A DNA stretch of 36,595 nucleotides, from IMG/VR virus record IMGVR_UViG_3300031727_000003, positions 1 to 36,595 of that record; one strand, given 5' to 3'. The position numbers and the translations under genes were made by a program. Every line of letters starts with the position of its first letter. The stretch's first letter is position 1. The notes beneath the pieces are model-generated. The model saw only the letters and a list, made by a program, of their open reading frames with translations. It did not search any database and was not told where the DNA came from. Of the stretch, positions 1,404-14,385 are shown piece after piece. Source of the stretch: a virus.

Positions 1404-1411
1404 CGTTAACG
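1404..1411. promoter_or_regulatory. CGTTAACG palindrome, possible operator
   Basis: This perfect 8-base palindrome begins about 7 bases downstream of the -10 box of the terminase promoter. The same 8-mer occurs twice in the non-coding gap at 12795-12802 and 12827-12834. I noticed no other copy, although a by-eye search is not exhaustive. The repressor-site role is inferred from position only. Confidence 0.4.
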
Positions 1412-1433: not shown

Positions 1434-2048
1434 ATGAAAAAGTTTAACGCGTCGAGCAAGTATTTGAAGCTGAGTATTCCTGAGCTTCGTGAATATGGAA
1501 CGATGAAGGTCAATCAGCGAAACTTCAAGCAAGATAGATTTGCTGTTTGGACTGCTGTTCAGGAGTGTGAGGGGATGAACTGTGTCGCCGCTCATGCGTG
1601 TATCTACCGTGTAGTGGATCCTGATTACGACAGACCCAAGTGCACCGTGATGATGAAGTACTTGAAGCAGGTCGAAGCGATGATTCTGTATAATTTTGGG
1701 AAAGACTTATCGGAAGCTGATCTGTTTCGCGTCGGTATGCACCTTATCCCTTTGTATAAGCAACTCGTTCGATTCAAGATTTCGGAAATGGCGATTACGT
1801 CTCAAGGGGTGGCGGAGTTCGCAAAGAACGGTACGACGAAGATTAATGGCGTATTTAAGGAAATTCGGGAAGTTATTAGGAGCATCGATGCAGTTTGGAA
1901 AGAGCTTGGAATGACAGCGAATCGAATAATCCCAAATGCGCCCGATATACCGATGAGTGCGAACCCGACCTATTACGAGCAGATGGAACGCGACGCTTTA
2001 AAGGAACAACGCAAGTTGAAGATTGTGAGGCGAGATGCCACTCGTTAA
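1434..2048 (+). CDS. terS: Terminase small subunit (probable)
   Basis: This 204-residue protein would recognise phage DNA and recruit the large subunit for packaging. GAGAGAGG at 1421-1428 precedes the ATG at 1434. It overlaps the large terminase start by 14 bases, the normal position for terS. The C-terminal half (about residues 100-165: LYKQLVRFKISEMAITSQGV, then KEIREVIRSIDAVWKELGMT) resembles the helical end of P27-type small terminases. The N-terminal half has an unusual Cys cluster (ECEGMNCVAAHAC, residues about 44-56, plus C65) that could bind metal. There is no clear HTH by eye. The call rests mainly on gene order plus a weak family resemblance. Confidence 0.65.
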   Translation: MKKFNASSKYLKLSIPELREYGTMKVNQRNFKQDRFAVWTAVQECEGMNCVAAHACIYRVVDPDYDRPKCTVMMKYLKQVEAMILYNFGKDLSEADLFRVGMHLIPLYKQLVRFKISEMAITSQGVAEFAKNGTTKINGVFKEIREVIRSIDAVWKELGMTANRIIPNAPDIPMSANPTYYEQMERDALKEQRKLKIVRRDATR

Positions 2049-3939
2049 GCGCACAAGCGGTCTGCTTGTCAGTACGAGCCTCGATGATTGGATAGATGAG
2101 CGCGAGTACGAGCCCACGAGTTATCGGGATGGTGGTGAGGGTTTTATTCAGTGGTGCAACGACAATGTTTATGTGCCGATTTACCCTCCGGGTTCTTTGA
2201 CAGTCGTTTGGACATTGATGAGCAATCTTCCTGAAGAGGTGCACGTTCAGACGCAGAAAAGCTACGCGTCGATGTGGCGCAGACAGCAGAACATTTGCCG
2301 TAGAGCGTTGAAGATGCACAACGGCAGTTTCATCCATCGATTGATCGTCTTCTGCTGGCAGCGAGGTGAGGGAAAATCGCTGATCGCGTGTTTGATCCAG
2401 TTGTGGAAGTTCTTTAACTTTCCTCGACAGCAGATAATGTTAGGAGCGAACTCGAAAGATCAGGTTAAGTTCGTCCACTACGACATCATGCGCGACATCA
2501 TTCTCAATTCGCCCAACCTGATTAAGGCTGTTGGGAAAAGAAATATTCAGGAAAAGGAGATCAGGTTAAAGGGTATCGACGGACAGGTAAAGAGCCTGAT
2601 CCGTTCGATCTCGTCGTTTTCGGGTATCGTCTCGAACATTACGGGCTACACGTTCAGCGAAATTTTTGACATGAAGAAGCCCAAGTTCTTCGTCCAGCTC
2701 GACGGTAGTATCCGTAATATGCCCAACGCGTTGGGTGTGATCGATTCGACGGTGAGCGACAAGACCCACGTTCTGTATCAGCTTTACGAGAACGCGGTGA
2801 CGAAGCAGACCACGACCGTGTATTTCGACTACCGGTGCAGCAAGACGGGCGATCCTGACGATTACATGAACCCCCACATGACGAAGGAACAACTCGCAGA
2901 TTACAAGGCAAAGTTTCCCTTCGGCGAGTATGAGCGGTACTTTTTGAATGTCTGGGAAGCTGGTCGAACTCAGATATTCACCGACGCGATGATCGCCGCA
3001 ATTAGGATTTATGCGATTGACGATCAGACGTTGAACAATGCGGAGATTCAGGAAGCCTGCCAGCGTCGTCTCGATATTCTGAATAGCGTAGACAGCAACA
3101 ACGAAAAAGGTTTCGATACGGACTTCCTCTTCGACCAGATACAGTCAATCGATGCGCGATTCAAGTACATCGACGAGCTATGTCATATCGACGCGATGAG
3201 CAATTATCCTGCGACATTCGACATGCTCATGGCACTCTCAACGATGTTCGACACCGACTGGTCTATTTTGGTCGGGCTTGACTTCGGTGATCCGCTCGCG
3301 ACAAGAGGTCAAGCGCGAACCATGGTAAGCGTGATCGCGAAAGGTATGGTGGGAAGCAAGTCAAATCCAATAACAGCACGTCTATCAGAGGCAGCTCCTA
3401 AGTATTTTTATGTGTTGCTGTATCTTGCGAACATTGAGAACCATGCGGTAAACTCCGTTAAAGAGACCCTTGATCTCGTGGATATTGAGTATGACGGGAT
3501 CGATGTGATTTGCTCTGAACGTTGGGGTGCTTGGGATATAGGGGGATGGTGTGAAGAACGAGCTATCAAATTCGAAGCGATCTATCCGAACTACGACAGG
3601 CAAAAAGCAGCCTTCAAGGAGTTCTTCGTCTGTTGTAAAGAGGGAAGATTTAAAGCTCCGCACGTCCCAGTGCAAGGTTCAAAAACGGAAGACGTGCTAC
3701 GGGAAGAAATGGGTGCTTTCGATCATTGGACTAAATCCTCAGACCCAACGTCATCGTCTTACATGTTTGGTAGCAGGGAGAAGTTTGAAAGGGGAGGTAT
3801 TCAGGACGACTCGGTGTACTCAATCGGATGGGGTCTCTACGGTGGTCGAGAATTAGGGTTTAACGATTTTCGTATCAGGCGTTCTTCTGCTGGATTTGGC
3901 TTTTTCGCGCCCGGACGTGATTTAGTTGCCAAATATTGA
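2035..3939 (+). CDS. terL: Terminase large subunit (ATPase and nuclease)
   Basis: This is the DNA-packaging motor that translocates DNA into the prohead and cuts it. Of 634 residues, the ATPase half carries a Walker A-like WQRGEGKS at about 108-115. A Walker B-like YTFSEIFDM follows at about 205-213, where Ser occupies the usual Asp position before the catalytic Glu209. A coupling-motif-like VIDSTVS comes about 30 residues later. The RNase H-like nuclease half has GLDFGDP with Asp416 and a terminal acidic pair QDDSVYSIGW (Asp591/592). The length is typical of phage TerL. GTGAGG at 2025-2030 is the SD, within the end of terS. The substituted Walker B is the only oddity; the protein otherwise looks intact. 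Confidence 0.93.
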   Translation: MPLVKRTSGLLVSTSLDDWIDEREYEPTSYRDGGEGFIQWCNDNVYVPIYPPGSLTVVWTLMSNLPEEVHVQTQKSYASMWRRQQNICRRALKMHNGSFIHRLIVFCWQRGEGKSLIACLIQLWKFFNFPRQQIMLGANSKDQVKFVHYDIMRDIILNSPNLIKAVGKRNIQEKEIRLKGIDGQVKSLIRSISSFSGIVSNITGYTFSEIFDMKKPKFFVQLDGSIRNMPNALGVIDSTVSDKTHVLYQLYENAVTKQTTTVYFDYRCSKTGDPDDYMNPHMTKEQLADYKAKFPFGEYERYFLNVWEAGRTQIFTDAMIAAIRIYAIDDQTLNNAEIQEACQRRLDILNSVDSNNEKGFDTDFLFDQIQSIDARFKYIDELCHIDAMSNYPATFDMLMALSTMFDTDWSILVGLDFGDPLATRGQARTMVSVIAKGMVGSKSNPITARLSEAAPKYFYVLLYLANIENHAVNSVKETLDLVDIEYDGIDVICSERWGAWDIGGWCEERAIKFEAIYPNYDRQKAAFKEFFVCCKEGRFKAPHVPVQGSKTEDVLREEMGAFDHWTKSSDPTSSSYMFGSREKFERGGIQDDSVYSIGWGLYGGRELGFNDFRIRRSSAGFGFFAPGRDLVAKY

Positions 3940-3959
3940 TTTTAAGCGAAAAAAAGTAC

Positions 3960-3990
3960 TTGACAAATGGGCAGAAGCCTTTGTTATTAT
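3960..3990 (+). promoter_or_regulatory. Sigma70-type promoter before the portal gene
   Basis: TTGACA at 3960-3965 is followed, after 19 bases, by TATTAT at 3985-3990 (5/6). A GTTATT at 3983-3988 would give the optimal 17-base spacing but is a poorer match. It starts 20 bases after the terL stop and would give a leader of roughly 130 bases before the portal start. Confidence 0.6.
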
Positions 3991-4023
3991 TAGTCGTTGG
4001 CTCATGCTTGAGTCCATCGATTA

Positions 4024-4033
4024 ACCTCCTTTA
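4024..4033 (+). promoter_or_regulatory. Anti-Shine-Dalgarno copy in the portal leader
   Basis: ACCTCCTTTA is identical to the 3' tail of bacterial 16S rRNA as generally known. Its CCTCC (4025-4029) is complementary to the GGAGG at 4122-4126 that precedes the likely portal start. The leader RNA could therefore mask its own ribosome-binding site. On the opposite strand the same bases form a strong SD. The match is seen; the function is inferred. Confidence 0.4.
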
Positions 4034-4037
4034 TTCC

Positions 4038-4059
4038 TCGACGCCCATGCCAGCGTCGA
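4038..4059 (+). promoter_or_regulatory. Leader hairpin 1 before the portal gene
   Basis: TCGACGC (4038-4044) and GCGTCGA (4053-4059) form a perfect 7-bp stem around an 8-base loop. It has no T-run after it, so it is not a classical terminator. It stands just upstream of the longer hairpin at 4065-4109. Confidence 0.55.
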
Positions 4060-4064
4060 CCATA

Positions 4065-4109
4065 GATTGTCCCGAAGTGGTTTCAGCGGGTTCCCACTTC
4101 GGGACAATC
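4065..4109 (+). promoter_or_regulatory. Leader hairpin 2, 16-bp perfect stem
   Basis: GATTGTCCCGAAGTGG (4065-4080) is exactly complementary to CCACTTCGGGACAATC (4094-4109) across a 13-base loop. It ends 12 bases before the GGAGG of the portal gene. No U-tract follows. A perfect 16-bp stem with no mismatch is far longer than expected by chance in coding-dense phage DNA. It could be an mRNA processing or stability element, a translational switch, or a protein-binding DNA palindrome. Confidence 0.75.
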
Positions 4110-4131
4110 ACATCCAGCGATGGAGGACACA

Positions 4132-5757
4132 TTGAATCAGCAAGAGATCGCTGAGTATGTGATGAATATCCCAGATGAAGTCATGTCCAACATGACTTTT
4201 TCTGTTCCTTGGCAATTCGATGAGGGCACAAGCGAGCGAAAAGACCCCGATGGTTTCCCTACCACCTCTGATGGAAAAGAAGACGGCGCTCTCGCACGAA
4301 GATCACTTCAAGACCAATGCTGGGACAAATTTCAGCGAAACCCCCAAGTCAATACAGCGATTCGAGGTCTTGCTGGAAGAATGTGCGGAAACGGTTTTGG
4401 CGCGTCATCGGAGATCCGTCAGATCCAAGAAGTCCTCGATGAGATCACCTTTGATTGGAGGAATCGACTCTACGCTTTATGGCCCAAGTATGCCGCTCGT
4501 GCCGAAATAGAGGGTGAACTCTTTTTGCTCTTTACGCTTCACGAGAATGGTTTTGTTGAGGTTGACTTCGTTGATCCGACGACCGTAGATTCTGGTGGGG
4601 ATGACGGTACGGGTATCATTTTTCATCCCACAAAAGCGTTGATGCCCTTATTTTTCAACGTCCGCACGAATCGTCTCAACTCGACCAATTTAAAGGAACA
4701 CGAACAAATCCCAAGTATCTACGTTGCGAGATATCCTCAATTTGTCAACGATGTCAAAAAACATTTGGACTTCAAGGCAAGTTATCAAGAAAACAGCAAG
4801 TCCCGCAAGAAAGTATTTCAAGACTTCGGGGGTTATTACCGCTTCATGTGCTACTGGGAAAAAGGGTACATGACGCGTCGGGCGATAGGGTATTTGAGAA
4901 CAACCCTTGAGTGGTTGAATCATTACGAAAACCTGAAAAAGTACGAGATCGATCATAAGAAGTCCGCAGGGGCTTATGTCTGGACAGTACAGATCGAAGA
5001 CCCGAGAACGTTCAAGCTCTGGCTTTCTCTGTCAGACGAAGAAAGAGCGAAGACCGGTATCATGGCAAAGAAGACTCCCGGTAGTACGCTCGTTCTTCCC
5101 CCGGGCTGCACTCTCTCCGCCACTTACCCGCAGTTGTCGAAGATCAGCGAAGAAGACACCGACATTTTGAGCCTCATTACTGCGGGTCTCAATGAGCCCG
5201 AAGACATCAGTACCGGTGCGTCGAGAGCGCCGTATGCGAGTGTCAAAGCGTCACGTGGTCCTTATTCCGATCGAATGAGTGACGAGATCGCTTATTTTGA
5301 GAGGTTTTTGAAGTACGAGTTCTGGTCAACGATTTTCTTTCTCCGAAGCAAGGTAGTAAGATTTCCAACAAAATTCAAAGTTCGGGAAGCGACGAGTTTT
5401 GATGAGAACGGCGAGCCGAAGTTCGAGACGCTTCAAAAATCGCCCGAACATCTGGTCGATATTTCTTTTCCGACATCTGAGGTAATTGATTACGAAGCCA
5501 GAGCAAAGGGGCTGCTCGGTACGAAGCATGGTCCTGTGAGTGAGCAGATCGGTATTCCCAGTAGCGAAGTCGCAAGGCGGATGGGGTTTGGTGGTTACGG
5601 TCGTCTTCGTTTGCAGAAAGCGACAGAAGACAGCAGATATCCCGAACTCGTTTATTCTGCCGGTGTAGATGCCGAGAAAGTTCAGGAAACGACTGAAGGC
5701 GAGCCTGGTAAGATTACTGCACCCAAGAAAAAACTCGTAAAACGCACGACCGAGTAA
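4132..5757 (+). CDS. Portal protein
   Basis: Portal proteins form the dodecameric ring at the head vertex through which DNA passes. An ATG at 4120 is in frame but has no SD. The in-frame TTG at 4132 lies 5 bases after GGAGG (4122-4126) and is the more likely start, giving 541 residues. The sequence matches the portal pattern: an N-terminal segment about interactions with the head (NPQVNTAIRGLAGRMCGNGF), a beta-rich wing (EGELFLLFTLHENGFVEVDF), and a helical stem and crown with acidic and basic stretches. The Lys/Glu-rich C-terminus (KITAPKKKLVKRTTE) is probably disordered. It sits between terL and the protease gene, the standard place, and its size is typical. Expression may depend on the structured leader upstream. 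Confidence 0.85.
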   Translation: MNQQEIAEYVMNIPDEVMSNMTFSVPWQFDEGTSERKDPDGFPTTSDGKEDGALARRSLQDQCWDKFQRNPQVNTAIRGLAGRMCGNGFGASSEIRQIQEVLDEITFDWRNRLYALWPKYAARAEIEGELFLLFTLHENGFVEVDFVDPTTVDSGGDDGTGIIFHPTKALMPLFFNVRTNRLNSTNLKEHEQIPSIYVARYPQFVNDVKKHLDFKASYQENSKSRKKVFQDFGGYYRFMCYWEKGYMTRRAIGYLRTTLEWLNHYENLKKYEIDHKKSAGAYVWTVQIEDPRTFKLWLSLSDEERAKTGIMAKKTPGSTLVLPPGCTLSATYPQLSKISEEDTDILSLITAGLNEPEDISTGASRAPYASVKASRGPYSDRMSDEIAYFERFLKYEFWSTIFFLRSKVVRFPTKFKVREATSFDENGEPKFETLQKSPEHLVDISFPTSEVIDYEARAKGLLGTKHGPVSEQIGIPSSEVARRMGFGGYGRLRLQKATEDSRYPELVYSAGVDAEKVQETTEGEPGKITAPKKKLVKRTTE

Positions 5758-5767
5758 GGGGGCGAAA

Positions 5768-7120
5768 ATGCCATGGACAGTCGGGGACGTTGATGATTTC
5801 AAGAAAGGACTGACTCCAGCACAAAAGAAAAAATGGGTCAGTATCGCTAACGGTGTTCTTAAGGATTGCCAATCGAAGGGTGGGAAAGATTGTGAAGGAA
5901 AGGCAATTCGTATTGCAAACTCGAAATTCAGCGAGGAGATGAGCATGAAAGGAGATGTGACGACTCAAAAAGTTCCCAAAGGCGCGTTGCGCTTTGTAGA
6001 GGAAGGCTTTCACGCATTTGCCGTTACCGATGAGAGCAAGATTCCTAAGATCCAGATGACAGCTTATAATGGGAAAGTCATCAAGGGTCATTGGTATTGG
6101 GGAGACTTGGCTATCGATCTTTCTGGAATGAAGTTCGCTTCGGGCAAATTCCCCATTCTTGAGAATCACAACACCGACAGGAAGATCGGTTTTCATGACG
6201 GCAAACCCGACATCTCCGAAAACAAACTCGAATTGATTCCTGAGAAGACGAAACTGGTCGATACCGAGACCGCGAAAGAGTTTGTCAAACTGTCTTCTGA
6301 CGGTTTTCCTTATCAGGCAAGCATTTATGCTAAGCCTACCGAAATACAACGCCTCTTGGAGAACGAAACGACAGATGTTAATGGGTTCACTTTTAAAGGC
6401 CCAGGTACGGTATGGAGGAAAAGTGAGTTCAAAGAGGCGTCTGTTTGCGTCTTCGGTTGGGATTCGACAACGAAGTCCTCTGCGTTTTCGAGGGAAGTGA
6501 CCGAAGACGTTGAATATATAGAAAATGCGAACCAGTTTGAGGATACTATGGTCGCAGAAACAGAGGGCAATCACACTGAGAAAGGAGGTGAAAACATGAA
6601 TTTGGAAGAACTGAAAGCAAAGTATCCCGATCTGTTCGCGCAGTTTGCGAATGAGGTGAAGGCTGAACTCGAAGCGGCGTTCGCTAAGGAGAGGGAGAAA
6701 CTCACCGCGGAAAAGTCTGATCTCGAAAAGAAACTCGGCGACAGCGACAAACGCCTTGCCGATCTCGAAAAGAAAGACGCTCTGCGTGAGGAACGCGAGA
6801 GAGAGGCTACCGCTGATCGTATTTGGTCTTCGAAGCTGTCTGAGTCCGACGTTGCCGATCACATGTGGGACAAGGTGAAGCGCATGGTCTCTTTCAAGAA
6901 GTTCGTCAAGGATGACGTTCTTGATGTCGAGGCGTTCAGCAAAGCCGTTGACGATGAGGTGAAGGATTGGGAAGCTCGTTTGGCTCAACAGTCTGTCACA
7001 GGTGTTGGTTCGGTCGGTCGCAAGTCTGACGGTGAATCGACAAACGCGGCTGATGCAGAACAAAACAAAAAGTTCACAGACGATCTGCTGTCCCGTGCAG
7101 GTCAAAAAGTAACTGCTTAA
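5768..7120 (+). CDS. ChaB-like / prohead protease / scaffold fusion protein
   Basis: This 450-residue protein combines head maturation protease and scaffold. Residues 1-57 (TPAQKKKWVSIANGVL..CEGKAIRIANSKF) resemble the small ChaB-like domain often fused in front of phage proteases. Residues about 65-260 form the protease: His134 in ENHNT with GFH downstream, Ser185 in YQASIYA and the FKEASVCVFGWD block (Ser225) match the His/Ser pattern of prohead proteases; I favour Ser185 as the nucleophile. Residues 277-450 are a charged coiled coil typical of scaffold, ending in DDLLSRAGQKVTA. GGGGGCG at 5758-5764 serves the first ATG. Two well-placed internal SD/ATG pairs (5933-5947 and 6581-6598) predict shorter in-frame products, as in lambda C/Nu3. 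Confidence 0.85.
   Translation: MPWTVGDVDDFKKGLTPAQKKKWVSIANGVLKDCQSKGGKDCEGKAIRIANSKFSEEMSMKGDVTTQKVPKGALRFVEEGFHAFAVTDESKIPKIQMTAYNGKVIKGHWYWGDLAIDLSGMKFASGKFPILENHNTDRKIGFHDGKPDISENKLELIPEKTKLVDTETAKEFVKLSSDGFPYQASIYAKPTEIQRLLENETTDVNGFTFKGPGTVWRKSEFKEASVCVFGWDSTTKSSAFSREVTEDVEYIENANQFEDTMVAETEGNHTEKGGENMNLEELKAKYPDLFAQFANEVKAELEAAFAKEREKLTAEKSDLEKKLGDSDKRLADLEKKDALREEREREATADRIWSSKLSESDVADHMWDKVKRMVSFKKFVKDDVLDVEAFSKAVDDEVKDWEARLAQQSVTGVGSVGRKSDGESTNAADAEQNKKFTDDLLSRAGQKVTA
5933..5947 (+). promoter_or_regulatory. Internal ribosome-binding site and ATG (protease without ChaB-like domain)
   Basis: GAGGAG at 5933-5938 lies 6 bases before the in-frame ATG at 5945 (codon 60). Starting here would remove exactly the ChaB-like region and give a conventional protease-scaffold protein. 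An alternative ATG at 5939 (codon 58) directly touches the SD and is less likely. Confidence 0.4.
6581..6598 (+). promoter_or_regulatory. Internal ribosome-binding site and ATG for a separate scaffold protein
   Basis: AAAGGAGGTG at 6581-6590, as strong as any SD in the window, stands 5 bases before the ATG at 6596. That ATG is in frame with the protease gene (codon 277) and marks the exact protease/scaffold boundary. Confidence 0.75.
6596..7120 (+). CDS. Nested scaffold protein (internal start of the protease gene)
   Basis: The predicted product is 174 residues, starting MNLEELKAKYPDLF and consisting mainly of a Glu/Lys-rich coiled coil (about residues 15-70) and a C-terminal helical part. 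Scaffold proteins of lambda-like phages (Nu3) are made from an internal start inside the protease gene and share its C-terminus. Here the SD, spacing, frame and domain boundary all match that arrangement. The scaffold would direct capsid shell assembly and then be degraded by the protease half of the longer product. It is followed directly by the decoration and capsid genes. The evidence is by analogy and sequence, with no direct proof of translation. Confidence 0.7.
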   Translation: MNLEELKAKYPDLFAQFANEVKAELEAAFAKEREKLTAEKSDLEKKLGDSDKRLADLEKKDALREEREREATADRIWSSKLSESDVADHMWDKVKRMVSFKKFVKDDVLDVEAFSKAVDDEVKDWEARLAQQSVTGVGSVGRKSDGESTNAADAEQNKKFTDDLLSRAGQKVTA

Positions 7121-7841: not shown

Positions 7842-7871
7842 CCATTTAGAAGGGAGGTGAAACAGTATGCC
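7842..7871 (+). repeat. Duplicated translation leader, copy 2
   Basis: This is the partner of 7127-7156 (29 of 30 bases identical; A to C two bases before the G of AGT ahead of the ATG). It provides the SD AGGGAGGTG for the major capsid gene. Confidence 0.8.
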
Positions 7872-9180
7872 CCGTGGAGCAAGTGAAATACCCATTCTAA
7901 GGTTGGAAGTTCTGCAGGACTTCATTACGAAGTTCAAGGCAGCTCCCAATCTGTTATTTTCGAACCTTTTTTCCGGCACACGAAATGCTGAGAGCGACAC
8001 GATCAAGTGGGAGTCTCAGAGAGGTGGTCGGGGAATGGTTCCGTTTGTACCGCCCGGTGCACCTGCACCGGTATCGGCGCCGCATGGGATTGCTCAACAT
8101 CAAGCGACTGCCGCTTACTGGAAAGAAAAGCGGTATTTTGATGAGGAATTTTTGAACAATCTTCGCAAGCCGGGTACTGACGCCACACATCAAACCGCAT
8201 TGGACACTCTTGCGGACAACTTGGCTGATCTCGTCAACAGGGCAAATCGGAGAAAAGAGTGGATGTTCTCCAATATGCTTTTGAACAACGGGTTCAGCTA
8301 TCAGGTCAAAGGTGGCTACACCGTCGATCTTGAATACGGTATACCTTCGGATCATCGGGTGTCGCTGACGTCCTCGTACTACTGGACCGATGGTGGGAGC
8401 AAGGACATTCTCGGTGACATCAAAGACGGTAAGCGTAAAATAGCCGAAGCAAACGGCGGCGTCGTCGATACCGCGATTTGTAACAGCGCGGTTCTTGACA
8501 TGATCGGTAAAGACAGTTCAATTCGAAGTCTTTTGCAGACCAATGCTTTTGGCAACGGTTCGCTCATGGCAAGCGCAGGTGTCAACAACCTCGCTCTCGT
8601 CAACGCGAAAGTTCTCGGAACGTTGCTGGATATTCCGAATTTCGTTATTTACGATGAGATGTATGAGGTCAAAGCCGAACTTACCGGTGGTGTTACCGGC
8701 GGGTCTACAACCTGGATCCAAGTGAACGATGCGTCTGATTTTGATGCCTACGAAAAACTCACCATCTGGGACAGAAGTGCCCCCGATACTTACGAGTCAC
8801 GTTACATCATTTCGGTCAATAAATTCACCAATCAGGTTCAGATCGAATACCCCTTCACCTACAGTTATGTTGCCGGAGAGGACTACGTCACGATGCAACG
8901 GTACTATGTGCCCAGTGACAAGTTCGTTATGATGGCTTCAACTGTTGAAGGTCAACCCATTGCTCGTTACATTCAAGCTCCTTTCGGTCTGGGTCGCCGA
9001 TGGGGTCTCTATACTGATCGAAAAGATGAGTGGGATCCTGAGGGTACTTGGATTCGTGTGCAAGACAAAGGTTTGCCCGTGTTGTATCACGTGGATGCGC
9101 TCTACACCATTGATGTAGCCGCGACCGCTGGTGAGTCTGCAACTACGACTTCCACCACGACCACGACCTCCGGTTCCTAA
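7867..9180 (+). CDS. Major capsid protein (lambda E-like) with Thr-rich C-terminal tag
   Basis: This 437-residue protein builds the capsid shell. The N-terminus (APNLLFSNLFSGTRNAESDT) and the following VPFVPPGAPAP segment, then KRYFDEEFLNNLRKPG, are characteristic of the phage capsid E family. An extra beta-rich segment at about residues 272-346 (WIQVNDASDFDAYEKLTIWD, later IEYPFTYSYVAGEDYVTM) interrupts the fold before YYVPSDKFVMM. It resembles the small insertion domains that decorate some capsid proteins. The chain ends with ATTTSTTTTTSGS, a tag shared with other virion proteins here. The gene has the duplicated strong leader, consistent with high expression. The order protease-scaffold, decoration, capsid is lambda-like. 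Confidence 0.9.
   Translation: MPRGASEIPILRLEVLQDFITKFKAAPNLLFSNLFSGTRNAESDTIKWESQRGGRGMVPFVPPGAPAPVSAPHGIAQHQATAAYWKEKRYFDEEFLNNLRKPGTDATHQTALDTLADNLADLVNRANRRKEWMFSNMLLNNGFSYQVKGGYTVDLEYGIPSDHRVSLTSSYYWTDGGSKDILGDIKDGKRKIAEANGGVVDTAICNSAVLDMIGKDSSIRSLLQTNAFGNGSLMASAGVNNLALVNAKVLGTLLDIPNFVIYDEMYEVKAELTGGVTGGSTTWIQVNDASDFDAYEKLTIWDRSAPDTYESRYIISVNKFTNQVQIEYPFTYSYVAGEDYVTMQRYYVPSDKFVMMASTVEGQPIARYIQAPFGLGRRWGLYTDRKDEWDPEGTWIRVQDKGLPVLYHVDALYTIDVAATAGESATTTSTTTTTSGS
9142..9180 (+). repeat. Thr-rich tag coding sequence (capsid protein)
   Basis: ACN/TCC codons encode TTTSTTTTTSGS at the end of the major capsid gene. The codons are mixed (ACT, ACG, ACC), so it is not a simple DNA triplet repeat. 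Similar tags end genes at 10662, 13877 and 24431 and the spike modules at 29333 and 30575. Confidence 0.85.
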
Positions 9181-12688: not shown

Positions 12689-12693
12689 GAAGA

Positions 12694-12717
12694 ACCGGTA
12701 AAGAAAACGTTACTGGT
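12694..12717 (+). terminator. Weak terminator-like hairpin after the tail terminator gene
   Basis: ACCGGTAA (12694-12701) pairs with TTACTGGT (12710-12717), allowing one G-U pair, with an 8-base loop. It begins 5 bases after the stop codon. Only a scattered T stretch (TTAATTTTA) follows, so it is a weak or non-classical terminator. Confidence 0.35.
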
Positions 12718-12794
12718 GCACTTAATTTTAGAACGTCTAACCATTTTATTTTCTTCGATAGTTTTGGTTTAGGAGTATCTTACACTGACAAAAA

Positions 12795-12834
12795 CGTTAA
12801 CGATTTTTACCAAAAATCGCGATTATCGTTAACG
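12795..12834. promoter_or_regulatory. Inverted repeat containing two CGTTAACG palindromes
   Basis: CGTTAACGAT (12795-12804) and ATCGTTAACG (12825-12834) are perfect inverted repeats 20 bases apart, each itself containing the CGTTAACG palindrome seen at the terminase promoter. An alternative inner stem CGATTTTT/AAAAATCG with a 3-base loop lies between them. This looks like a paired operator; it could also fold in RNA. Confidence 0.55.
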
Positions 12835-12842
12835 GTAACTTT

Positions 12843-12868
12843 TTTGAGCGTCATCAAAAACGCTCAGA
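12843..12868 (+). promoter_or_regulatory. Hairpin in the 12.8 kb gap
   Basis: GAGCGT (12846-12851) pairs with ACGCTC (12860-12865) around an 8-base loop; the stem extends with a T-A, a G-U and another T-A pair to 12843-12868. A T-run precedes it and an A-run lies in its loop. No T-run follows, so on the + strand it is not a standard terminator; on the - strand an A/T tract follows. Confidence 0.4.
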
Positions 12869-12880
12869 TTCGAAAAGCAC

Positions 12881-12913
12881 AGCGCCTCAGGCGCTCAAAT
12901 TTGAGACTTTTTT
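12881..12913 (+). terminator. GC hairpin followed by T-run, possible terminator
   Basis: AGCGCC/GGCGCT form a 6-bp GC-rich stem with a TCA loop (12881-12895). A run of six Ts begins at 12908, 12 bases after the stem; between them lies the palindrome CTCAAATTTGAG. The long spacing makes it a weak intrinsic terminator candidate. It lies about 30 bases before the zinc-ribbon gene. Confidence 0.35.
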
Positions 12914-12942
12914 AAAAACGAATATCAGAGCATAGGTAATTA

Positions 12943-13899: not shown

Positions 13900-14385
13900 A
13901 TGCCGGATGAGGACATGAAAAAACTTAATCCCCAGATTGCGAGTGTTTTAGTCGGCACTCGCAATCTGAGGAAGATTAATATTTATCCGCTTTCCGTTGG
14001 TGACCAACTTTCCATGACAAGTGTTATTACCGAAGCACTCGAATCTTTTAGGAACGCAGACGATGACGAGGAAATGGCAGGTGTCGTCATCGCTCTGTTA
14101 CAAAAGAACCTGCCGATGATTTTAGAATTTGTAACCGACTCAGATAAGGAGACGCCAGAAGAACTTTTGAAGGACATAACAAACACTCAGGTTCTCGATA
14201 TTGCACAAATCGTCTATGAACAAAACTACGCAGGGTTTTTAAAAAAAGCCAAGAGCCTCTTCGAGAGCGTGATGAAGAAAGCGGAAAGTTTACCAGTTTC
14301 GAAGAGGCCGTCACAGCCGTCTGTCAAATCTACGGATACAGACTCGAAGACATCTACCGAAGACGATTCAAAGATGGTGGATTAA
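13900..14385 (+). CDS. Tail assembly chaperone, short form (lambda G-like)
   Basis: This is the 161-residue zero-frame product. GAGGAG upstream serves the ATG at 13900. The chaperone, with its longer frameshifted form, binds the tape measure and tube subunits during tail assembly and is absent from the finished virion. The middle is helical and acidic (ALESFRNADDDEEMAGVVIA, LLKDITNTQVLDIAQIVYEQ). A slippery sequence at 14238-14247 interrupts it at codon 113-116, and the last 40 residues (Ser/Thr/Lys-rich) look like an unstructured tail. The position between the tube and the tape measure is diagnostic. Confidence 0.85.
   Translation: MPDEDMKKLNPQIASVLVGTRNLRKINIYPLSVGDQLSMTSVITEALESFRNADDDEEMAGVVIALLQKNLPMILEFVTDSDKETPEELLKDITNTQVLDIAQIVYEQNYAGFLKKAKSLFESVMKKAESLPVSKRPSQPSVKSTDTDSKTSTEDDSKMVD

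Follow-up and report, generated by a model that had tools for sequence, protein, structure and literature searches.

A putative structured leader RNA behind a conserved promoter in the terL-portal interval of an uncultured phage

The interval between the gene for the terminase large subunit (terL) and the portal gene raises, in the virus record considered here, the question of what an apparently structured leader does immediately upstream of the head genes. The window, by which we mean the whole stretch of DNA that was analysed, is this 36.6-kb record (36,595 nucleotides). A first-pass annotation had placed in the interval a promoter, a copy of the anti-Shine-Dalgarno (anti-SD) tail of 16S rRNA, two hairpins, and a Shine-Dalgarno (SD) sequence before a TTG start codon, and every one of these elements can be read from the sequence (Table 1). 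It had interpreted them as a possible switch, in which pairing between the anti-SD copy and the SD would keep translation of the portal gene low. The promoter and the structured leader have gained support from relatives of the virus, and the switch on the portal gene has not.

Table 1. Coordinates of the features discussed, in the window unless a relative is named
Feature	Position	Strand	Basis or remark
terL, terminase large subunit, upstream gene	2035..3939	+	PHROG large-terminase profiles, best E 1.7e-9
Promoter, TTGACA (3960-3965) and TATTAT (3985-3990)	3960..3990	+	sequence; 19-bp spacer ending in extended -10 TGT
Small hairpin at predicted transcript 5' end	3998..4016	+	fold prediction; start inferred near 3997
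ACCTCCTTTA, pyrimidine stretch complementary to portal SD	4024..4033	+	sequence
7-bp hairpin TCGACGC/GCGTCGA, 8-nt loop CCATGCCA	4038-4044/4053-4059	+	sequence; fold, pair probability 1.0
16-bp perfect hairpin GATTGTCCCGAAGTGG/CCACTTCGGGACAATC, 13-nt loop	4065-4080/4094-4109	+	pair probability 1.0
Shine-Dalgarno GGAGG	4122..4126	+	predicted paired with 4025-4029 (pair probabilities)
Portal start codon TTG	4132-4134	+	
Portal-like gene, TTG start	4132..5757	+	Pfam Phage_portal_2 E 9.9e-5, under curated cut-off; between terL and protease; many relatives
Head maturation protease	5768-7120		
Major head protein	7867-9180		
Large-RNA gaps in distant relatives	L031:2319-3000; L062:2157-3000; L067:2309-3000		
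Large-RNA gaps in distant relatives	L346 ~5330-6060; L369 ~3500-4210	- (both)	

The promoter behind terL

The portal-like gene occupies the usual portal position. Searches of phage isolate records with the DNA and with the portal protein did not find relatives of the window's portal region, and the search of genome contigs matched six MAG contigs only. The relatives compared here include portal-protein relatives from IMG/VR, for which the best 80 of 239 were fetched and to which other queries added further sets; the comparison set consists of 111 non-redundant terL-portal junctions. The closest clade comprises relatives with a terL 76-82% identical to that of the window. One contig, L001, is nearly identical to the window, differing at 4 of 5538 positions, and one of these (4110) lies just outside the 16-bp stem.

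The hexamer TTGACA is found after the terL stop codon (-5 to +100) at 68 of the 111 junctions, whereas only 4.8% of control windows (288 of 6045) contain it. Within the closest clade both the A-tract with TTGACA (AAAAAAGTnCTTGACA) and the motif TGnTATnAT are invariant, and the spacer is 19 bp. Hexamers of the TTGACA/TATAAT type are thus found at a conserved place, as in sigma-70-type promoters, and, judged from this conservation, the annotated promoter behind terL is genuine and well supported. A stock promoter scan that allowed spacers of 16-18 bp did not pick it up. A scan with a 16-mer of the promoter returned at least 120 matches, and among the matches listed none was accompanied by the terL or portal gene of the window. 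Two other promoter-like intergenic sites in the window (1368 and 33150) have short leaders without a comparable hairpin.

The palindrome CGTTAACG occurs three times in the window (1404-1411, 12795-12802 and 12827-12834), where 0.85 copies are expected and at least three were seen in 4 of 100 shuffles; one copy lies just 3' of the 1368 promoter and two lie in the intergenic gap at 12689-12942. In four relatives (L044, L069, L077 and L202) perfect 8-10-bp palindromes of the GGATA...TATCC type directly follow the terL stop codon. They share bases with the -10 element and are followed by a T-rich stretch, an arrangement that is operator-like or attenuator-like.

The terL-portal gap exceeds 300 nt at 29 of the 111 junctions, several of which hold small genes, and on the evidence of these contents it is a slot for gene gain by insertion across the phage family. 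Small Cys-rich (zinc-ribbon-like) ORFs lie between the promoter and the portal gene in L002, L004, L196, L197 and L204; the window is without one.

The leader of the window and the portal ribosome binding site

A transcript of the window's lineage would open with a leader of around 135 nt, in which a small 5' hairpin (about 3998-4016), missed by the first-pass annotation, is followed by the 7-bp and 16-bp hairpins. The leader (3997-4134) folds at a predicted -54.3 kcal/mol, compared with -34.7 +/- 3.5 kcal/mol in shuffled sequences (z -5.6, 0 of 200 shuffles as low), in agreement with the structured leader first described. The arms of the 16-bp hairpin rank first among the inverted repeats of the window. 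Both arms together were found in IMG/VR only in the near-identical L001 contig, and single arms of this stem elsewhere in IMG/VR look like chance matches. No covariation can be counted at the window's own stems, where L001 is identical. A further hairpin of 17 bp with 94% complementarity (13929-13972) is located 30 bases inside the ORF at 13900-14385, near its start codon.

The leader had been described as unlike any known riboswitch, and indeed no covariance model of Rfam 15 matched any part of the window at the gathering threshold; a permissive search of 3900-4200 gave only a chance miRNA match (E 0.5) on the opposite strand. A role as an intrinsic terminator or attenuator was considered and rejected for the 16-bp stem, because it is followed by ACATCC and no T run; the stem is also absent from the terminator scan.

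In the predicted fold of 3997-4170 the SD is 94-100% paired. Its main partner is 4024-4033, and opening this pairing would cost 4.7 kcal/mol. The annotated pairing of CCTCC with GGAGG is therefore present as a helix in this fold, but the two alternative folds suggested to arise from it are not: the CCUCC:GGAGG helix encloses both hairpins, so that all three coexist in the minimum-energy structure and the predicted leader has no mutually exclusive open and closed forms. As an exact copy of the host's own 16S tail ACCTCCTTTA is putative; to our knowledge only the core ACCUCCUUU of the tail is near-universal. Dinucleotide shuffles of the leader contain CCTCC in 25% of cases and an 8-base anti-SD match in 0.8%. 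The accessibility of the window's SD is not significantly below that of shuffles (P 0.215; rank 0.12 in a 34-leader comparison). Among the leaders of 34 relatives, SD occlusion does not go beyond chance (mean rank 0.485, P 0.75), which leaves a family-wide anti-SD hypothesis unsupported.

In the clade the TTG codon and the strong SD before it (GGAGG or GGGGG) are kept both by the viruses that have hairpins and by those that lack them. The weak start is therefore independent of the leader fold, and low initiation at the portal gene, if wanted, would need no hairpins. Portal-specific control by an anti-SD/SD switch, as originally proposed, is not borne out, the SD helix being at chance level in the window and in the 34 relatives. 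A mild brake on the portal gene by CCUCC-SD pairing, confined to the window's lineage, is possible.

Hairpins and a large RNA in related phages

Most relatives have a short leader (often 20-60 nt) that folds weakly. The closest clade is variable in this respect. The window and L001 have their hairpins followed by the portal gene. In L002/L003 and L004 a single strong hairpin is followed by two small ORFs, the first of them a Cys-rich gene, before the portal gene is reached. L196, L197 and L204 carry a small Cys-rich gene but lack a strong hairpin. The strong hairpin of L002 and L004 stands behind the same promoter as that of the window (z -3.2 and -4.5, respectively), and the two leaders are clearly homologous, with an alignment score of 44.5 versus 7.2 in shuffles. 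In their stems (GTTCGGGGTGAG/CTCACCCCGAAC in L002 and GTTCGGGGGTG/CACCCCCGAAC in L004) the two arms have changed together, and the core of the loop, TTTACTCCTTTC, is the same in both leaders. This comparison, of two sequences, points to selection for pairing beside the promoter, with a different gene downstream. As the first gene in L002 and L004 is not the portal gene, the hairpin would seem to go with the transcript and not with the portal. L004 has no CCTCC 5' of the hairpin and in L002 the CCTCC faces a mismatched SD, GAAGG, which likewise counts against an anti-SD/SD switch on the portal gene. The leader of the window does not align significantly with that of L002 or L004, so the argument for selected pairing, supported by these relatives at the same place, would extend to the window by position and architecture only. 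A possible homology between CTCCTTTATTCC in the window and CTCCTATTATTCC in L197 (P 0.03, in a single comparison out of six) is not relied on.

Two other relatives, L048 (from its promoter at 1941) and L164 (from 2272), have leaders of about 190 nt up to the portal gene with two strong hairpins. In the second of these hairpins the loop AATGCCACG is invariant and 15 of 15 pairs are kept with five double changes, although this is equalled in 15 of 500 shuffles and only two sequences are compared. The motif ATGCCA is common to the loop of the window's 7-bp hairpin and to L048/L164, perhaps by chance (11 occurrences, 7.5 expected).

The same slot contains a larger RNA in five diverged lineages (L031, L062, L067, L346 and L369). 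Their terL-portal gaps, of roughly 680-850 nt, start at the same promoter and encompass a conserved structured RNA of around 600 nt; the three gaps that were measured for ORFs hold none longer than 53-73 amino acids. The five-sequence alignment supports 86 pairs in 12 helices, and 37 of the 86 pairs are changed on both sides. Double changes fill 62 cells of the alignment. Shuffles give 23 +/- 3.6 such cells, with none of 500 reaching 62, and slid partners give 12 at most. The same alignment served to derive the structure, which tips the comparison with the slid versions in its favour, and the letter shuffles take no account of relatedness. A covariance model of the conserved core (R1) finds the held-out L062 at E 6e-24. 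Rfam gave no match to several copies at the gathering threshold, and the full L062 gap searched at E up to 1 gave only a chance miRNA match. On these comparisons, a large RNA with no Rfam match is well supported in the distant relatives and, while outside the finding on the window, it is the most novel thing that was encountered. R1 has no match in the window, L001, L002 or L004, and so gives no support to the idea that the window leader is a degenerate form of that RNA. A pattern search with GGTGTCCTTCC for further copies added only matches that look like chance.

Candidate roles and known systems

The leader is best explained, tentatively and at somewhat less than an even chance, as a structured 5' leader with a transcript-level role on the head-gene message. 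The sigma-70-type promoter behind terL would start a transcript that runs through the portal, protease and capsid genes and on, and stable stem-loops near its 5' end would shield or process this mRNA, either by protecting the 5' end or by providing a site for a double-strand-specific RNase; the CCUCC-SD helix would then slow translation of the first gene only mildly, if at all. This reading fits best, because the hairpin of the nearest relatives stays with the promoter, whichever gene follows, and keeps its pairing while the sequence changes. Three close relatives, L196, L197 and L204, manage without a strong hairpin, which counts against it. The translational brake of the first-pass annotation, in which CCUCC pairs with the portal SD, the hairpins hold the two close together and the weak TTG is rarely used, is unlikely as the main role, despite the largely paired SD and its freeing cost, and despite the same order of elements (CCTCC, hairpin, GGAGG, then a GTG start) in a distant relative, L066. 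The frequency of CCTCC in shuffled leaders, the unexceptional accessibility of the SD in the window and in the 34 relatives, and the lack of the arrangement in L002/L004, whose first gene is a different one, all weigh against the brake.

A protein of the phage or host, or another RNA, might instead recognise a hairpin loop that the stem merely presents, which would mean autogenous control or antitermination. The retention of loops above changing stems in both L002/L004 and L048/L164 makes such a loop-binding factor a serious rival, but the loops of the window differ from those of L002/L004, its ATGCCA match to L048/L164 may be fortuitous and there is no candidate binder, so that we regard recognition of the loop, and with it either form of control, as improbable for the window. 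Still less probable is that the hairpin acts as a DNA palindrome (an operator, packaging or recombination site) or is left over, without function, from genes gained and lost in this slot. The insertion slot and the palindromes that overlap the -10 element in four relatives are in favour, yet the concerted arm changes of L002/L004 fit a structure better than a fixed DNA site, the palindrome of the window is some 75 bp 3' of the -10 element, with both arms confined to the window and its near-identical contig, and a leader that folds well beyond shuffles would be unexpected of a remnant. The broadest proposal, that the phage family keeps its terL-portal interval, with the conserved promoter at its head, as a slot dedicated to RNA elements, in which the window leader, the L002/L004 and L048/L164 hairpins and the 600-nt RNA are lineage-specific versions of one head-assembly or packaging function, is highly speculative. 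Rather than a switch on the portal gene, the hairpins resemble a lineage-specific element that belongs to the head-gene message as a whole, and the window adds a modest new case of a structured phage leader, with a putative role. Were it to control that message, it would show concretely how a layer at the RNA level can lie between the packaging genes and the head genes of an uncultured phage family.

Among known systems, the leaders of ompA and of phage T7 gene 10 carry 5' stem-loops that stabilise the mRNA. The lambda N leader is a phage leader that is processed by RNase III, and the long perfect stem of the window could likewise be a substrate for a double-strand-specific RNase, although its 16 bp are short for an efficient RNase III site. 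Stabilising 5' stem-loops have been described by Emory, Bouvet and Belasco (1992) and, for papA, by Bricker and Belasco (1999), both as cited in PMC3997798. As such mRNAs are outlined there, the window is similar in having a predicted stem-loop a few bases from the 5' end, at 3998-4016 for a start that is predicted near 3997, and further stable stems in the untranslated leader, a likeness that also makes a transcript-level role the best fit; it differs in that its 5' end is predicted only and its strongest stem lies about 70 nt away. SD-sequestering leaders are known from late genes of phage T4 such as gene e, with inhibition described for early transcripts that contain the gene (PMC3014915). 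The window resembles gene e in the predicted intramolecular pairing over its ribosome binding site, but this pairing is neither conserved in relatives nor beyond chance.

Of more weight than the window leader is the wider comparison: five lineages carry in this slot a large RNA with strong covariation and no match among the Rfam models. GOLLD and ROOL are known large phage RNAs, often found near tRNA islands (PMC12286853). The 600-nt RNA sits instead between terL and the portal gene, and the Rfam models of GOLLD and ROOL did not match it; like them it is large, elaborately structured, phage-encoded and non-coding, and its location between the packaging motor and the portal would make a role in head filling directly testable.
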